Positions 9,196 to 20,520 of a stretch of DNA of 39,520 nucleotides are shown piece by piece. The translations under genes were made by a program, and so were the position numbers. The stretch is from Deltaproteobacteria bacterium. GTDB taxonomy: Bacteria > Desulfobacterota > Desulfuromonadia > Desulfuromonadales > Geopsychrobacteraceae. Within the stretch, counting starts at the first letter, position 1, and every line of letters begins with the position of its first letter. The notes beneath the pieces are model-generated. The model had not been told where the DNA came from, made no database searches, and worked only from the letters and a program-made list of their open reading frames with translations. Location of the stretch: assembly GCA_024276905.1 (NCBI GenBank), contig JAJRWF010000039.1:1-39520 (forward strand). Direction: 5' to 3'.

Positions 9196-10563
9196 TCAAC
9201 CCTGGCGCGCAAAGGAATAATCACACAGGCGCTGTAAATGACTGAACTTATCCTGCTGCCCCCCCTGCCAACCCTCCAGAACCTGCTCGGCCAGGGTTTT
9301 TCCTGAACGCAGAATCGGCTCCAGCGGATCAAGAAAGGTCGTCTCATCATCGGCATTATGGCCTTGCTGATGCTGACGTTTTAAACCAAGACGCGCTTCA
9401 GCAACTAACTCACGAGCCAGATCAAGCAGACATGCATCTCCGAACCGGGCCCGCAACCCCAGGCGCCAGGAATCACGATAGAATTCCAGACGGGCGGGCA
9501 CACTTAAGCCGTTGAGCAAACTTTCGGTCTGTGCAAGGGCGGCTTCGTCATAGAAAAGGCCCTTGACCAGGGCGGCAACTGCCAGCGCCAGATCGGGTGG
9601 TAAACTGTCTGCGGTACGCAATTCCAGCTGCGGTCGCAGGCGAACCTCGGGGAAAAGGGTCGAAAGGTGCAATTCCCAGTCATCAAGGCAGGCAATCTCG
9701 CCCTTGGCTCCCTGTTCAAGAAAATCGCTGAAACTGATGCGCCGATCAGTCATGTCGATCAGCGTTTCGCCACGTTGCAGAAAATAGACCGGGGTCGCAA
9801 GGGCATAATCGACATAGTCATCGAGACTCGCGCCCTCCTGCATAAAAGCGGGAATCAGACCGCAGCGATCATTGTCGGTTCGTGACCAGATTTCTCCGCG
9901 CACCGCCAGAAAACCACTATCGACACCATCGAGTAACGGTGAATTGGCAAACAGGGCATAAAAAACCGGAGCCAGCCATTGCAGCAAGCGCAGCTTGCGC
10001 ACACAATCAGCCGCGTCAAGATAATCGAGATTGACCTGGGTCCCGGCGGTTTGCTTCATCATCCGCTGGCCCATATCGCCGGTTTTCAGCATATAGGGTC
10101 CCATGACGCCGTAGCGCTTCTTGGGCAACCAGTCGATCTTCTCCAGCGGGGTAAAGGGCTGAATACCGAAACCGACCAAGCAGAGACCCAACTGCGGGGC
10201 AACTTCACTGACCTGTTTGACATAACGCAGCAAATCACGCCGGTTGCAATGCAGATCGCAGCAGAGACGACCGGACAGTTCGAGTTGCCCCCCAGGCTCC
10301 AGCGTCACCGAAGACCGCTTGCCCTGCAGACCGATCAGAGCCTCACCATCATAGATCCCCTGCCAGCCGGCAGTACCCTCAAGCTGCGCAAGCAACTCAC
10401 GTATTCGTGCATAACCGGCCGCTTCGCCGCTTGCGGCGTCAAGCACCAGTTTTTCAGTCTCAAGACCAATCCCCCACTCCTCGCGCGGTCTGGCACCGCT
10501 ACGCAGACAGTCCAGCAGATCATCCCTTGAGTTTATCGGTTGGTTGGCCGAAGAACTTTTCAT
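9196..10563 (-). CDS. gshA: Glutamate-cysteine ligase (GCS2 type)
   Basis: Catalyses ATP-dependent joining of glutamate and cysteine to gamma-glutamylcysteine, the first step of glutathione synthesis. The 455-residue length fits the plant/alphaproteobacterial-type class rather than the E. coli class of about 518. The N-terminal strand carrying the metal-binding Glu is seen in WGIGLETEKLVLD. Further family-like segments are LEPGGQLELSG, GTQVNLDY and LELRTADSLP, the last near the acidic/Arg active-site end. It starts five bases after the aminotransferase stop, so the two are one transcript and the alanine-leader attenuator upstream should affect both. No glutathione synthetase gene is in the window, so the final thiol product is unknown. 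Confidence 0.92.
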   Translation of the reverse strand: MKSSSANQPINSRDDLLDCLRSGARPREEWGIGLETEKLVLDAASGEAAGYARIRELLAQLEGTAGWQGIYDGEALIGLQGKRSSVTLEPGGQLELSGRLCCDLHCNRRDLLRYVKQVSEVAPQLGLCLVGFGIQPFTPLEKIDWLPKKRYGVMGPYMLKTGDMGQRMMKQTAGTQVNLDYLDAADCVRKLRLLQWLAPVFYALFANSPLLDGVDSGFLAVRGEIWSRTDNDRCGLIPAFMQEGASLDDYVDYALATPVYFLQRGETLIDMTDRRISFSDFLEQGAKGEIACLDDWELHLSTLFPEVRLRPQLELRTADSLPPDLALAVAALVKGLFYDEAALAQTESLLNGLSVPARLEFYRDSWRLGLRARFGDACLLDLARELVAEARLGLKRQHQQGHNADDETTFLDPLEPILRSGKTLAEQVLEGWQGGQQDKFSHLQRLCDYSFARQG

Positions 10564-10568
10564 TCTGA

Positions 10569-11894
10569 TCAGTCTAGCACCTTTGCTTCAGGAATCGCGA
10601 GGTAGTCACCAATCGAGCTGGCCAACATTTTAAAAACCTGGGTAAACTCACCCTCATCCATCTCCAGCAGGGTCACACGGAAACCACGCTCATCGGTACA
10701 GAATGAAGAGATCGGCACCACACAGATTCCGGTCGAGCCCAGCAGGTAGTAGACAAAACGCTTATCGAGGCTGATGCCGGGCGCTGTAATCAACTCCTCA
10801 ACCATGCTGCGCACCTCATCGTTCGCAATCGGCAGGACCTGCTGTTCAGTCAGGACCCCCGGCTCGAAAACCACACTCATGTAGAAAGCGCCATTGGTCC
10901 GGTTAACCTTGATTCCCGGCACATCCTTGAGTAGTTGATAGGCGATATTCGAATATTTTTCGTAGCGATTTCTGCGTTCTTCAAGATATTTCGGATATTC
11001 GGGATGACTGAGAATCGGCGGTATCGCCTTCTGCGGCAGGGTCGTTGAGCAGACCTCGACCATTTTGGAATTGACGATACTCTGGATGTATTGGGCAAAC
11101 ATCGGATCTTTGTCAGCATTATAGACTTCGATCCAGCCGCAACGTGCTCCGGGCCAGGGCAGTTCCTTGCTGATCCCCTTCATGGAGATCGCCGGCAGGT
11201 CACCGATCAGATCGGAGATCGGCTTGGTGCTTTCACCATTGTAGACCAGGTTATTGTAGATTTCATCGCAGATCAGAAACAGATCGTATTCCTTGCAGAT
11301 CGCAATAATCTCGGTAAGAATCCGCTCCGGGTAAACTGCCCCGGTCGGATTGTCGGGATTGATTACCAGAATTCCCGAAATTGTCGGGTTGTATTTGACC
11401 GACAGGCGCAAATCATCGAGATCGGGATACCAGTGATTGTCCGGATCGAGATAATAGGTCACCGGCTTCTGTCCGGCATGGGCACCCTCGGCCGAAGAGT
11501 GGGTCGAATAGGTCGGAGAGGGCCCTATGACCCGCGCCTCACGCCGCAGCAACCCGTAAACTTTCTGAATAGCATCCCCCAGGCCATTGAAAAAGATAAC
11601 GTCTTCCGCAGTGATCTGGGCTTTACCACGAGCATTGGTCTGATCAGCCAGAAATTGCCGGGTTTCGAGCAACCCCTTGGTCGCGCAATACCCGTAAGAG
11701 CAATCCGTCATCACCAGATCGGCCACAATCTCTTTCATCCACAAGGGAATTTTTTCCCCCTTGGCGATCGGATCGCCAATATTTTCCATATTGGTCTTGA
11801 TCCCGAAGCGATTCATCTTTTCTGCAATCTCGACGATTGCCCGGATCTCGTAGGTCAGTTCTCCGGCACCGATGTGGACAATATTGTTGCGCAT
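10569..11894 (-). CDS. PLP-dependent class I/II aminotransferase (possibly alanine aminotransferase)
   Basis: A fold-type I aminotransferase of 441 residues. Visible motifs are the PLP-stacking region (FFNGLGDAIQKVYGLLRREA), the NPDNPTGAVYP segment with the cofactor Asn, the Asp-Tyr region (LICDEIYNNLVYNGEST), and the Schiff-base Lys at about residue 243 in GISKELPWPGARCGW. The substrate-carboxylate Arg region is near the C-terminus. The N-terminus (about 80 residues before the PLP motifs) is normal for the AlaA/AlaT-like group. Its substrate is not fixed by sequence. However, the gene is preceded by a 25-codon leader peptide with five Ala codons in a row and a terminator, which favours a role in alanine formation. 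gshA follows at five bases. Confidence 0.88.
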   Translation of the reverse strand: MRNNIVHIGAGELTYEIRAIVEIAEKMNRFGIKTNMENIGDPIAKGEKIPLWMKEIVADLVMTDCSYGYCATKGLLETRQFLADQTNARGKAQITAEDVIFFNGLGDAIQKVYGLLRREARVIGPSPTYSTHSSAEGAHAGQKPVTYYLDPDNHWYPDLDDLRLSVKYNPTISGILVINPDNPTGAVYPERILTEIIAICKEYDLFLICDEIYNNLVYNGESTKPISDLIGDLPAISMKGISKELPWPGARCGWIEVYNADKDPMFAQYIQSIVNSKMVEVCSTTLPQKAIPPILSHPEYPKYLEERRNRYEKYSNIAYQLLKDVPGIKVNRTNGAFYMSVVFEPGVLTEQQVLPIANDEVRSMVEELITAPGISLDKRFVYYLLGSTGICVVPISSFCTDERGFRVTLLEMDEGEFTQVFKMLASSIGDYLAIPEAKVLD

Positions 11895-11914: not shown

Positions 11915-11950
11915 ATAAAAAGAAAGGCCATGAACACTCTGTCCATGGCC
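11915..11950 (-). terminator. Attenuator terminator in the aminotransferase leader
   Basis: On the minus strand, GGCCATG (11950-11944) pairs with CATGGCC (11932-11926) across an 11-base loop and is followed by TTTCTTTTTAT. It ends about 20 bases before the aminotransferase start. The stem's left arm and loop contain ATGGACAG (11946-11939), an exact complement of CTGTCCAT (12003-11996) inside the leader peptide. The terminator and that pairing therefore exclude each other. Confidence 0.8.
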
Positions 11951-11986
11951 TCGGTTGTTTATTGTAAACCCGTACAGCTCACCCCT

Positions 11987-12064
11987 TCAGGGATGATGGA
12001 CAGTTGAAAGGCGTAAGGTCGCCGCCTGAAACGCTCGTGCTGCCGCTGCTGCCGTGTTAATCAT
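11987..12064 (-). CDS. Ala-rich leader peptide of the aminotransferase attenuator
   Basis: A 25-codon frame encoding M-I-N-T-A-A-A-A-A-R-A-F-Q-A-A followed by ten residues and TGA. It starts at ATG with GGAG six bases upstream. Eight of the 25 residues are Ala, five of them in a row (codons 5-9: GCA GCA GCG GCA GCA). It lies 92 bases upstream of the aminotransferase start, before a terminator. This is the arrangement of known amino-acid leader peptides, whose run of one amino acid senses the matching charged tRNA. A ribosome reaching the stop would cover the CTGTCCAT segment and allow the terminator to form. A ribosome stalled on Ala codons would leave it free to disrupt the terminator. The mechanism is inferred from sequence. 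Confidence 0.72.
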   Translation of the reverse strand: MINTAAAAARAFQAATLRLSTVHHP

Positions 12065-12091
12065 GTGTTTCTCCGTCTTGCGATTATCAGA

Positions 12092-12119
12092 TTCATAGCC
12101 TGAATTATCACAGAGTCAA
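12092..12119 (-). promoter_or_regulatory. Candidate sigma-70 promoter of the leader
   Basis: TTGACT (12119-12114), 16 bases, then TATGAA (12097-12092) on the minus strand. A start near 12085 would place the leader ATG about 20 bases into the transcript. A second TTGACT just upstream gives an alternative with GATAAT at 15 bases. Either position fits an attenuator transcript starting after the transporter stop. Confidence 0.5.
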
Positions 12120-12175
12120 AAACAAGTCAATCCCCGACCGACAAATCCGGGCACCAAGCCGACAACCTCCGAAAC

Positions 12176-13081
12176 TCAGAGCAGAACCATCAACAGGGTC
12201 AGGGTCACCAGGCTGGCCAAAGTGGAGACAACCACGACCGAAGTCACAAAATCGGGGACGATATCGTTCTCCTTGGAGATAATCGCCACCAGAATCGCCG
12301 TCGGCATCCCCGCCTGCAAGATTCCGGCAGCACTCTCGACCGAACTCAAGCCGAAGGGAATAACCACGGCAAACGCGATGAGTGGAGCCAGCAATAACCG
12401 AATAGATGAGGTCAACAGGACATCGCCCGACAGTGCAACCCGTTTCTGCTCCAGCAGTTGCAGTCCCAACGCAAAGAGCATCACCGGAATCATCGCGTCT
12501 GCCAACAGCCCGATCATCCGGGAGAACGCCAGCGGAATACCCAGCCCGGTGGAAGAAACAATGACTGCCGGAACCGTCGCCCACAGAGCCGGGGTTTTCA
12601 ATACCCCCAGGAGCGCCCCATTGCGCCCTCCTCTGGCCCAGCCTGCGGCACCGACGCACACGACAAAAGCGGTAATGGTGATGGCGACAAAATAGATGGT
12701 TGCCGAAGCCAGCGCGACATCACCAAGACGAAAACGGATAACCGCCAACCCGTAATTGCCGACATTGCCGAACACCGCGATCATCACAAACGCTGCGATC
12801 ATTTCGCGGGAGCGGCCCAGCAGCCAACCGACCCCGCCGGCAACAACAGCGGTCAGCAGATGCACGGCAACGATGAAACAGAGCATCTTCAGGGTGCCGT
12901 CGAGCGAAACCTTCGAGCCACTGATCGCCTGGAAAATAAAGGCCGGGACAAACACATAGTAGGCGGCCCTGGTCAGGGTCCGCGCCTGCAACTCCAGACG
13001 TTCCCCCAGGAGGGAACCAAGGACAACAATCCCGAACACCGGCAGGATCACATTGAAAAAAACTGAGAATAATTCCGTCAT
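12176..13081 (-). CDS. AEC (auxin efflux carrier) family transporter
   Basis: A polytopic inner-membrane protein of 301 residues with about ten hydrophobic segments in two five-helix halves. It opens with FSVFFNVILPVFGIVVLGSL, typical of AEC permeases. The second half contains SSTGLGIPLAFSRMIGLLAD and LFALGLQLLEQKRVAL. It ends with the family-typical SVVVVSTLASLVTLTLLMVL. Bacterial AEC members move organic acids such as malate or malonate, or amino-acid-like anions; the substrate cannot be told. ATG at 13081 with GGATGA upstream is preferred over the longer frame from 13174, whose extra residues are not membrane-like. It stands alone between the PFOR terminator and the aminotransferase leader. 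Confidence 0.9.
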   Translation of the reverse strand: MTELFSVFFNVILPVFGIVVLGSLLGERLELQARTLTRAAYYVFVPAFIFQAISGSKVSLDGTLKMLCFIVAVHLLTAVVAGGVGWLLGRSREMIAAFVMIAVFGNVGNYGLAVIRFRLGDVALASATIYFVAITITAFVVCVGAAGWARGGRNGALLGVLKTPALWATVPAVIVSSTGLGIPLAFSRMIGLLADAMIPVMLFALGLQLLEQKRVALSGDVLLTSSIRLLLAPLIAFAVVIPFGLSSVESAAGILQAGMPTAILVAIISKENDIVPDFVTSVVVVSTLASLVTLTLLMVLL

Positions 13082-13156
13082 CAAATCATCCGAAAAAGAA
13101 AAGTGCAGAACTGCAGACATCAGCCTAACGTTTTCGCTGCCACAATACCAAAAAAA

Positions 13157-13190
13157 AGGCTCTCGACAAATCAATGTCGAGAGCCTTTTC
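13157..13190 (-). terminator. Intrinsic terminator after PFOR
   Basis: AGGCTCTCGACA and TGTCGAGAGCCT form a perfect 12-bp stem with an eight-base loop. It has seven T on the minus-strand side and four on the plus. It begins 23 bases past the PFOR stop. It ends the PFOR transcript and insulates the transporter gene. Confidence 0.92.
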
Positions 13191-13212: not shown

Positions 13213-15741
13213 TTATTTACCGCAATCAGCCTGCATCTCTGCCAGCTTCTTGTACAGATCGTAGCGGGTGGCAACATCCTTGGCCGAGGCCTCCATCAAC
13301 GCCTCTGCGTGCTCCGGGTTGGCCTTCTTCAGAACCCGGAAGCGGTTCTGGTTCCCGGCATACTCGGCGAAACTGATGCTCGGGTCCTTGCTGTCCATCT
13401 GCAGCGGATTCTTGCCTTCCGCAACCAGGCGGGGATCGTAACGGAACAGCGGCCAGTGACCGCAAGCCACGGCCTCTCTGCAGTTGTCGACCGCCTTGGT
13501 CATGTTGATGCCGTGGGCAATACAGTGGCTGTAAGCGATGATCAGAGACGGACCATCGTAGGCATCCGCCTCGATCATCGCCTTGACCACCTGAGCCGGA
13601 TTCGACAACGCAACCCGGGCAACATAAATGTTGCCGTAGGTCATGGCGATCATCGACAGGTCTTTCTTCGGCATCACCTTGCCACCGGCAGCAAACTGGG
13701 CCACCGCACCAATCGGAGTCGACTTGGACGCCTGACCACCGGTATTGGAATATACTTCGGTGTCGAGAACCAGTACATTGACGTTTGCGCCGGAAGCGAG
13801 GACATGGTCGAGACCACCGTAACCGATATCATATGCCCAACCGTCTCCACCGTGGATCCAGACCGACTTGACCACCAGGTAGTTAACGTTGACCAGCAGC
13901 TGCTTGGCCGTTTCGTGGGTACAAGCGGAAAGAACCTTCGTCAACTGAGCGACCCGGCCGCGCTGGGCCTCGATCTCTCCTTGTGAATCCTGAGCGCTGT
14001 CAAGGATCTCATTCTTGAGACCTGCAGTCCCTTCACAGGCCTTGCAACCGCAATCGATGTTGCTCTTGAGCAGTTCAGTCGCGTAAGCGGCCGTCTTGTC
14101 GATCGCCAGACGCATCCCGAAACCGAACTCGGCGTTGTCTTCAAACAGTGAGTTGCTCCAGGCCGGACCGAGACCATCTTTACGCTTGGCCCAGGGAGTG
14201 GTCGGCAGGTTGCCACCGTAAATTGAGGAACAACCGGTCGCATTGGCAACCACCATCCGATCACCAAACAGCTGCGAGCAGAGTTTGACGAAGGGAGTCT
14301 CGCCACAACCGACGCAGGCGCCGGAAAATTCGAACATCGGCGGCAACAACTGACTGCCCTTGACGGTCGCACGGTTGAACAACGACTCGTCGGGATCAGG
14401 TAGAGCGAGGAAGAAATCGAAGTTCGCGGCTTCCTTCTCACGCAGGGCAGGCTGGGGAGCCATATTGATCGCCTTGATACCCTCTTCGGTCTTGCTCTTG
14501 ACCGGGCAGTTGTAAACACAAGCGCCACACCCGGTACAATCTTCCGGAGCGACCTGCAGGGTAAACTGCTTGCCGTCCATGTCCTTGCCCTTGGCCGCAA
14601 CCGACTTGAAGCTTTCCGGAGCGCCCTTGAGCTCGGACTCCTCATAAATCTTCATGCGGATTGTCGCATGCGGGCAGACAAAGGAACAGATGCCGCACTG
14701 AATGCACAGATCCTCTTTCCAGACCGGGATATGGACTGCGATATTGCGCTTCTCGACGCAGGCGGTCGCGGTCGGGAAGGTGCCGTCAGCCGGCATGGCC
14801 GAAAGCGGCAGTTTGTGGCCGAGGCCGTCGATGATCGGACCGAGGGTCGTCTTGACGGTCTCGGAGTGACCGTCCCATTTACCGGCCTGCATCTCGATAC
14901 TGCTGTCGGCCGCAGACGGAACAGAAACTTCGGCAATGTTCTCAAGCGCGACATCAACCGCCTGCTTGTTCATATTGACGACCTTCTCGCCCGCCTTGCT
15001 GTATGACTTGACGATCGCACCCTTGATCTCGGCAATCGCCTGGTCAAGCGAGATGATATTCGAAATCTTGAAGAAGGCGGTCTGCATGATGACATTAATA
15101 CGAGAGCCGAGACCGATCTTCTCACCCAGCTGAATACCATCGATGACGTAGAATTTCAGTCCCTTGTCGATGATCTGCTGCTGAACCATCTTCGGCAGAT
15201 GCGCCCAGACCTCATCCTTGCTGAAAGGGGAGTTGAGCAGGAAGGTCGCTCCCGGCTTGGCGTTCTTGAGCATGTCGTACTTCTCCAGAAAAGAGAAGTT
15301 GTGACAGGCGACAAAATCAGCTTCATTGTCGGAAAGCAGATAGGTCGACTTGATATCCTGATGACCGAAACGCAGATGCGAGGTGGTCATGCTGCCCGCT
15401 TTTTTCGAATCATAAACGAAGTAAGCCTGGACCTCATTGTCGGTGGTGTCACCGATAATCTTGATCGAGTTCTTGTTGGCGCCGACAGTACCATCGGAAC
15501 CCAGGCCGTAGAACATCGCCGCGAAGCCTTTGAACGGAACCTTGTAGTCGGCGTCGAACTTGAGGCTTTTGCCGGTCACATCATCCTCGAAACCGACGAT
15601 GAAATGATTCATCGGCTTGTCCGGCAGCATGTTGTCGAGCACCGACTTGCACATTCCGGCATTGAACTCAAAGGAACCAAGGCCATAACGACCGCCGACG
15701 ATCGACGGATAACCTTCGAAACTGGTGAAGCCCTCGACCAT
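13213..15741 (-). CDS. nifJ: Pyruvate:ferredoxin oxidoreductase, C-terminal two thirds (after in-frame amber)
   Basis: Carries the rest of the single-chain PFOR that oxidises pyruvate and CoA to acetyl-CoA, CO2 and reduced ferredoxin. It opens MVEGFTSFEGYPSIVGGRYG, part of the domain II end region. The gamma-like domain follows, then two 4Fe-4S clusters (CIQCGICSFVCP at about residue 346 and CTGCGACVYNCP at about 400). The TPP domain shows GACVGCGETPF (about 477) and DTEVYSNTGGQASKS (about 661). With the upstream piece it makes about 1193 codons, the normal size for the family. The ATG at 15741 lies three bases past the TAG in the same frame and has no properly spaced ribosome site. Separate expression would need coupled re-initiation; otherwise the gene is inactive or the TAG is an error. 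Confidence 0.9.
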   Translation of the reverse strand: MVEGFTSFEGYPSIVGGRYGLGSFEFNAGMCKSVLDNMLPDKPMNHFIVGFEDDVTGKSLKFDADYKVPFKGFAAMFYGLGSDGTVGANKNSIKIIGDTTDNEVQAYFVYDSKKAGSMTTSHLRFGHQDIKSTYLLSDNEADFVACHNFSFLEKYDMLKNAKPGATFLLNSPFSKDEVWAHLPKMVQQQIIDKGLKFYVIDGIQLGEKIGLGSRINVIMQTAFFKISNIISLDQAIAEIKGAIVKSYSKAGEKVVNMNKQAVDVALENIAEVSVPSAADSSIEMQAGKWDGHSETVKTTLGPIIDGLGHKLPLSAMPADGTFPTATACVEKRNIAVHIPVWKEDLCIQCGICSFVCPHATIRMKIYEESELKGAPESFKSVAAKGKDMDGKQFTLQVAPEDCTGCGACVYNCPVKSKTEEGIKAINMAPQPALREKEAANFDFFLALPDPDESLFNRATVKGSQLLPPMFEFSGACVGCGETPFVKLCSQLFGDRMVVANATGCSSIYGGNLPTTPWAKRKDGLGPAWSNSLFEDNAEFGFGMRLAIDKTAAYATELLKSNIDCGCKACEGTAGLKNEILDSAQDSQGEIEAQRGRVAQLTKVLSACTHETAKQLLVNVNYLVVKSVWIHGGDGWAYDIGYGGLDHVLASGANVNVLVLDTEVYSNTGGQASKSTPIGAVAQFAAGGKVMPKKDLSMIAMTYGNIYVARVALSNPAQVVKAMIEADAYDGPSLIIAYSHCIAHGINMTKAVDNCREAVACGHWPLFRYDPRLVAEGKNPLQMDSKDPSISFAEYAGNQNRFRVLKKANPEHAEALMEASAKDVATRYDLYKKLAEMQADCGK

Positions 15742-15744
15742 TCC

Positions 15745-16863
<1,119 letters not shown>

Positions 16864-19957: not shown

Positions 19958-20065
19958 AGTGACAGCCAGGCACCCCCACGGCACACGAAACATGCTGCTG
20001 CCGCTGCTCCCTTCCGGGCCTGACGGGGTTCACAACCGCTCGTTGCGTGGGACCCGGCTGTCACT
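19958..20065 (-). ncRNA. ffs: Signal recognition particle RNA, bacterial small type (4.5S)
   Basis: About 108 bases that fold into one long hairpin. The ends AGTGACAGCC and GGCTGTCACT are complementary. On the minus strand the apex contains the conserved SRP core: TTGTGAACC, then GTCAGGCCCGGAAGGGAGCA, which binds Ffh. It lies between tRNA-Ser and dnaX on the same strand. The exact 5' and 3' ends are estimated from the outer stem. Confidence 0.93.

Positions 20066-20430: not shown

Positions 20431-20520
<90 letters not shown>

Follow-up and report, generated by a model that had tools for sequence, protein, structure and literature searches.

An open question raised by this locus is whether the short alanine-rich reading frame which precedes an aminotransferase gene is part of a regulatory switch and, if so, which signal that switch reads and which gene it serves. 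In this study, we addressed these questions using the window, i.e., the whole stretch of 39,520 nucleotides that was analysed, together with orthologous loci from across the class Desulfuromonadia. The initial annotation of the window had described a leader of 25 codons with a run of five Ala codons, eight Ala in total and a good ribosome site, a terminator (11915–11950) between that leader and the aminotransferase gene, and an exact complementarity between CTGTCCAT (12003–11996) and ATGGACAG (11946–11939). The coordinates and sequence agree with the leader as described, a hairpin and U tract were found at the terminator, and the two segments are indeed exact complements. The comparisons below indicate that the element is real and class-wide, and very probably an attenuator of the classical type with a new amino acid specificity. 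The features of the locus, all on the minus strand, are as follows.

12104–12130 (approximate), minus strand: sigma-70-like promoter, TTGACT...TGTGATAAT, from the sequence
12071–12074, minus strand: leader ribosome site GGAG, six bases 5' of the ATG
11987–12064, minus strand: leader peptide ORF, MINTAAAAARAFQAATLRLSTVHHP, 25 codons (ATG at 12064–12062, TGA ending at 11987), with eight Ala, five of them consecutive
12035–12052, minus strand: segment 1, the central part of the run of Ala codons, including a conserved CGA at 12037–12035; sequence and orthologues
12042–12046, minus strand: 5' side of helix P0, GCGGC within the Ala codons, with its partner at 11978–11974; 25 relatives
12010–12028, minus strand: small hairpin P1 within the leader, GGCG:CGCC; 25 relatives
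11996–12003, minus strand: antiterminator strand CTGTCCAT, in the last part of the leader ORF; sequence and class-wide comparison
11980–11995, minus strand: hairpin P3 around the leader stop codon, CATCC:GGGTG; weak on its own
11974–11978, minus strand: 3' side of helix P0, directly past the leader stop codon; 25 relatives
11926–11950, minus strand: terminator hairpin GGCCATGGAC...GTTCATGGCC, with the U tract next to it
11915–11925 (about), minus strand: terminator U tract, from the sequence
10569–11894, minus strand: PLP aminotransferase, PRK06855 (NF005334), the putative regulated gene; profile match
9196–10563, minus strand: plant-type glutamate-cysteine ligase (gshA), second gene; profile match

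Conservation of the leader and terminator across the class

Orthologues of the aminotransferase are present in 254 of the 277 genomes of the class. Upstream regions from 100 orthologues (loci from the window's own family, plus about one for each genus in the other families) were analysed with a classifier which looks for an ORF of 10–50 codons closely followed by an intrinsic terminator and scores the maximum number of Ala residues per 16 codons. An Ala-rich leader with a terminator, at a threshold of at least four Ala per 16 codons, was identified at 94 of the 100 orthologues, in 24 of 25 families and in both orders, with the terminator 19–47 nt past the leader ORF. At least five Ala were reached in 92 of the upstream regions and at least six in 86; the window's own leader scores eight, and the leaders with the fewest, at four, include L087 and L089. 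A block of the form TTGACT...TGTGATAA likewise lies 5' of the leader at orthologous loci. The base rate of such leaders was gauged with shuffled sequences, the 39.5 kb window and orthologues from outside the class. None of 500 dinucleotide shuffles of the 100 upstream regions reached five Ala or more, nor did any of the 41 orthologues from outside the class, which are mostly from Desulfobulbales (Desulfocapsa, Desulfoprunum and others), and a single one of the 100 reverse complements did so. Elsewhere in the window no score above five was obtained on either strand, the sole five being at the end of a transketolase gene.

With this near-complete coverage of families, the element looks to be ancestral to the class, with few losses. 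Two loci, L054 and L071, have no leader in up to 790 nt upstream of the gene. Four others without the element (L095, L099, L100 and L106) have DNA directly upstream that resembles the end of another gene, which suggests that the aminotransferase is under a different promoter there. A covariance model built on the element identified one strong site (E < 1e-9) in each of 32 genomes of the window's family, with no second copy at a convincing score elsewhere in those genomes. All but one of the 32 sites are at the aminotransferase, the remaining one being in G020, an incomplete assembly in which the aminotransferase was not found. The distance from terminator to gene is usually ~30 bases, versus ~100–285 bases at L017, L018, L021, L029 and L032, and the gap in L029 holds repeat-like DNA.

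Competing pairings in the leader RNA

The fold of the window's sequence taken singly is ordinary (z −1.04), and the case for an attenuator therefore rests on the relatives. In an alignment of 25 close relatives the terminator stem has 99.6% of its cells paired. The antiterminator helix, formed by CTGTCCAT and the terminator's left arm and loop (11946–11939), is present in all 25, with 92% of cells paired and six of its nine pairs invariant. An exchange from C-G to U-A is seen in four sequences at column 56:124 of the window family's alignment, and as column 124 lies within the terminator loop this exchange is not attributable to the terminator stem. When the helix was slid out of register as a control, the paired fraction fell from 84–93% to 23–40%. 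Across the class, an antiterminator helix of at least eight pairs was found in all 90 scored loci, and most helix positions show at least two Watson-Crick pair types between families, including loop positions that the terminator stem does not use. The two strands have been rewritten jointly, as is evident from CTGTCCAT:ATGGACAG in the window, CTTGTCCATTGCCTT:AAGGCCATGGGCAAG in L057, TATCCGCTGCC:GGCCGTGGGTA in L080 and TACCCACGGCC:GGCCGTGGGTA in L087. Leaders paired with their own terminators have a mean energy of −17.4 kcal/mol versus −15.0 (sd 0.25) when permuted, and none of 5000 permutations was as low; this permutation test ignores common descent, while the exchanges named above are visible one by one. 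An alignment of Ala runs and compensatory changes had been proposed in the initial annotation as the check on its attenuator reading, and that check, when run across relatives, was passed: conservation of the Ala codons extends over the whole class, as does that of the antiterminator pairing, and the paired bases covary.

A further helix, which was absent from the earlier description, completes the switch. This helix, P0, pairs Ala codons (12046–12042) with GCTGC/GCCGC at 11978–11974 and has 94.4% of its cells paired in the 25 relatives. Because P0 crosses the antiterminator helix, the two are mutually exclusive. In the 94 loci the Ala run pairs with the later part of the leader better than with shuffled sequence (p 4e-11), and the helix varies in form and in its bases between lineages. 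In the compact leaders L082, L083, L089 and L091 of the Geobacterales, the Ala run is close to the stop codon, and a single segment, GCCGCCACTGCT, is complementary to both the Ala codons and the left arm of the terminator and can pair with one or the other. The hairpin P1 has 81% of cells paired among the 25 relatives, with A-U replaced by C-G and G-U at column 32:50. For P3, ~71% of cells are paired in an alignment with gap shifts, and a counterpart, CGTCC/GGACG, was recognised by eye in L009. Helices other than the antiterminator differ strongly between lineages.

A probable ribosome-mediated switch and its alternatives

We consider it highly likely that the element is a ribosome-mediated attenuator which senses the charging of Ala-tRNA and controls an aminotransferase that most likely functions in alanine synthesis. 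Its parts are conserved, they co-vary, and the pairings they form are mutually exclusive; their operation in the cell, by termination and read-through with alanine as the signal, is predicted from this arrangement. If Ala-tRNA were scarce, the leading ribosome would stall within the Ala codons and block P0. CTGTCCAT could then base-pair with the terminator's left arm and loop while they emerge from the polymerase, which would read on into the aminotransferase. If Ala-tRNA were plentiful, the ribosome would reach the stop codon and mask CTGTCCAT, the terminator would form and transcription would end. We modelled folding of the RNA as it would be just before the right arm of the terminator is made, for two ribosome positions, one within the Ala codons and the other at the leader stop. 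For the first position the antiterminator had a median probability of 0.96, and for the second 0.00; this contrast is partly built in, given that the antiterminator strand is covered when a ribosome sits at the stop codon. A shift of at least 0.3 towards the antiterminator with the ribosome in the Ala run was obtained for 61 of the 94 sequences, and for none in the opposite direction. As modelled, therefore, the layout is right for a switch. At equilibrium, nearly all of the full-length RNAs favour the terminator, regardless of where the ribosome is placed. Owing to this greater stability of the terminator in the finished RNA, the switch would have to be kinetic, with read-through arising from timing.

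Several features of the reading frame suggest that the leader is translated. In all 94 leaders the 16-codon Ala window is free of stops when read in the Ala frame, compared with 56 and 64 of 94 for the other two frames; this comparison is supportive but not independent, as the ORF was picked for its Ala content. Alanine makes up 36% of leader residues and all four of its codons are in use (GCG 305, GCA 295, GCC 187 and GCT 107). Within the Ala run of the family alignment A2 the third codon position is the most variable (entropies of 0.45, 0.28 and 0.75 for the three positions). At the loci of the other order (L080–L107) the ATG of the leader is at the expected transcript start, right after the −10 box, and the leader peptide of these loci is probably made from a leaderless transcript.

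There is a slim chance that the leader is instead an arrest peptide of the TnaC type, in which a specific nascent chain responds to a small molecule by halting its own ribosome. A short leader followed by a terminator would also fit that mechanism, as would the VHHP C-terminus, which is conserved inside the window's family. However, the C-terminus varies within the class, where it can be VHHP, CLAM, PAAR or CPAC and has 15 kinds of last residue, whereas its complementarity to the terminator is kept class-wide, and it is Ala content that is the feature common to all leaders. It is very unlikely that GC-rich repeats were selected as RNA structure, with the Ala run as a by-product and the terminator under the control of a ligand-binding RNA or a protein. 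Although the Ala codons do sit in helices and the CGA element described below is conserved at the nucleotide level, the uniformly open Ala frame and its third-position variation both argue against this explanation, as does the lack of a match to the element in Rfam (the best being 19 bits versus a cut-off of 59). Moreover, the strong variation by lineage of the helices besides the antiterminator is unlike an aptamer, and it is this variation, together with the retention of the Ala frame, that led us to reject a riboswitch or protein-bound leader. The probability of a plain constitutive terminator beside a chance short ORF, free of any regulation, is negligible, for while the ordinary single-sequence fold would suit it, the class-wide conservation with empty controls and the covarying antiterminator pairs do not.

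One feature, a near-invariant CGA codon, is unaccounted for by the attenuator model. The Arg codon before Ala is CGA in 65 of the 66 leaders that have Arg there. In the orthologous genes, by comparison, CGA accounts for 4.6% of the Arg codons. Several of the leaders without that Arg read CAA or CAG at the site, as judged by eye. The distance from the CGA to the terminator has a median of 85 nt (quartiles 82–89). In one complete relative, for which 30 of 42 tRNA matches were typed, the Arg anticodons are TCT, CCT, CCG and ACG, and with such a set CGA may be read slowly by wobble. No consistent RNA partner was found for the CGAGC element. The codon may be a ribosome pause or an RNA element. More tentatively, the fixed rare CGA could be a built-in default pause which synchronises the ribosome with RNA polymerase and against which the supply of alanine would be read. 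If this were true, the CGA would do at the level of a codon what the pause hairpin does in the trp leader.

Known attenuators and the putative regulated gene

The element resembles the trp, his, leu, ilv, thr and pheA attenuators of proteobacteria in having a leader rich in one residue, a terminator and an antiterminator strand within the leader. As in the trp and his attenuators, the regulatory codons pair with a later segment, following the 1:2 / 2:3 / 3:4 logic. It differs from the classical systems in its repeated residue, alanine, in the gene that it precedes, a PRK06855 aminotransferase, and in the ATG of the Geobacterales leaders, which is about at the expected transcript start. To our knowledge, the established set of leader-peptide attenuators did not include alanine. 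In Firmicutes the alaS T-box responds to the charging of tRNA-Ala through a structured RNA that binds the tRNA directly, with no leader peptide. The proposed signal is the same here, but a leader peptide is present, and the T-box covariance model gave no match at either the gathering or a relaxed threshold.

The initial annotation could name no attenuator of this kind for alanine, and in this it needs amending, as one earlier proposal exists. In Streptomyces lividans TK24 the AlaL leader on alaS, MNVIGRNIFATARATSSPVAAA with six Ala, was put forward as an attenuator and called new by its authors (PMC8079986). AlaL is likewise an Ala leader peptide with a proposed attenuator role, but it is from another phylum, another gene and a single genome, and the part of that report available to us does not describe conservation or an antiterminator pairing (PMC8079986). 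The phrase "alanine attenuator" was not found in the literature searched, a search that most subscription papers fall outside. In the attenuator survey of Naville and Gautheret neither alanine nor Geobacter appears in the main text (PMC2965389). A 2024 search of 50 genomes, one Geobacter included, yielded eight upstream-ORF candidates, with ilvB and fthC named and alanine not mentioned in the main text, to which our statement is limited (PMC11109978). AlaL is thus the nearest prior claim that we found, and alanine attenuation appears barely to have been proposed before. Since the element is retained through most of the class, including Geobacter and Desulfuromonas, it is testable in culturable strains, and the natural variants of the leader offer a ready series for studying how such switches evolve.

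The aminotransferase belongs to the NCBI family PRK06855 / NF005334 (747 bits; cut-off 443), which has no assigned substrate. The next-best model is that of an alanine aminotransferase, PRK08363, at a score below its cut-off, and among solved structures the nearest in sequence is that of E. coli AlaA, a glutamate-pyruvate aminotransferase (4cvq, E 8e-48). This likeness to AlaA is suggestive only, because other aminotransferases of the same genomes score as well as the enzyme, or better, against the alanine aminotransferase model, and nine of the 11 genomes tested, including the window's own, also encode an alanine dehydrogenase. An assignment as the alanine aminotransferase by exclusion fails on the same two counts. 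The attenuator offers a strong hint to the role of this widespread family with its unassigned substrate, in that the PRK06855 enzyme probably forms alanine from pyruvate.

An operon of the aminotransferase and gshA had been proposed as the target of regulation, of which the aminotransferase part stands and the gshA part does not. In the window's order, 18 of the 21 families include one or more loci with gshA 3' of the aminotransferase. In the other order (families f22–f25), gshA is absent from this position at all 28 loci, most of which retain the attenuator. The attenuator tracks the aminotransferase rather than gshA, which is therefore ruled out as the regulated target; at the window's locus gshA, probably co-transcribed with the aminotransferase, is likely carried along.

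Upstream neighbours on the minus strand, named from their translations, are an auxin-efflux-type transporter (12176–13174) and a split pyruvate:ferredoxin oxidoreductase-like pair (13213–16794). Pyruvate would be the amino acceptor for alanine. Farther along the same strand, a small SRP RNA (19961–20059) and a tRNA-Ser (GGA; 20433–20520) lie near each other.
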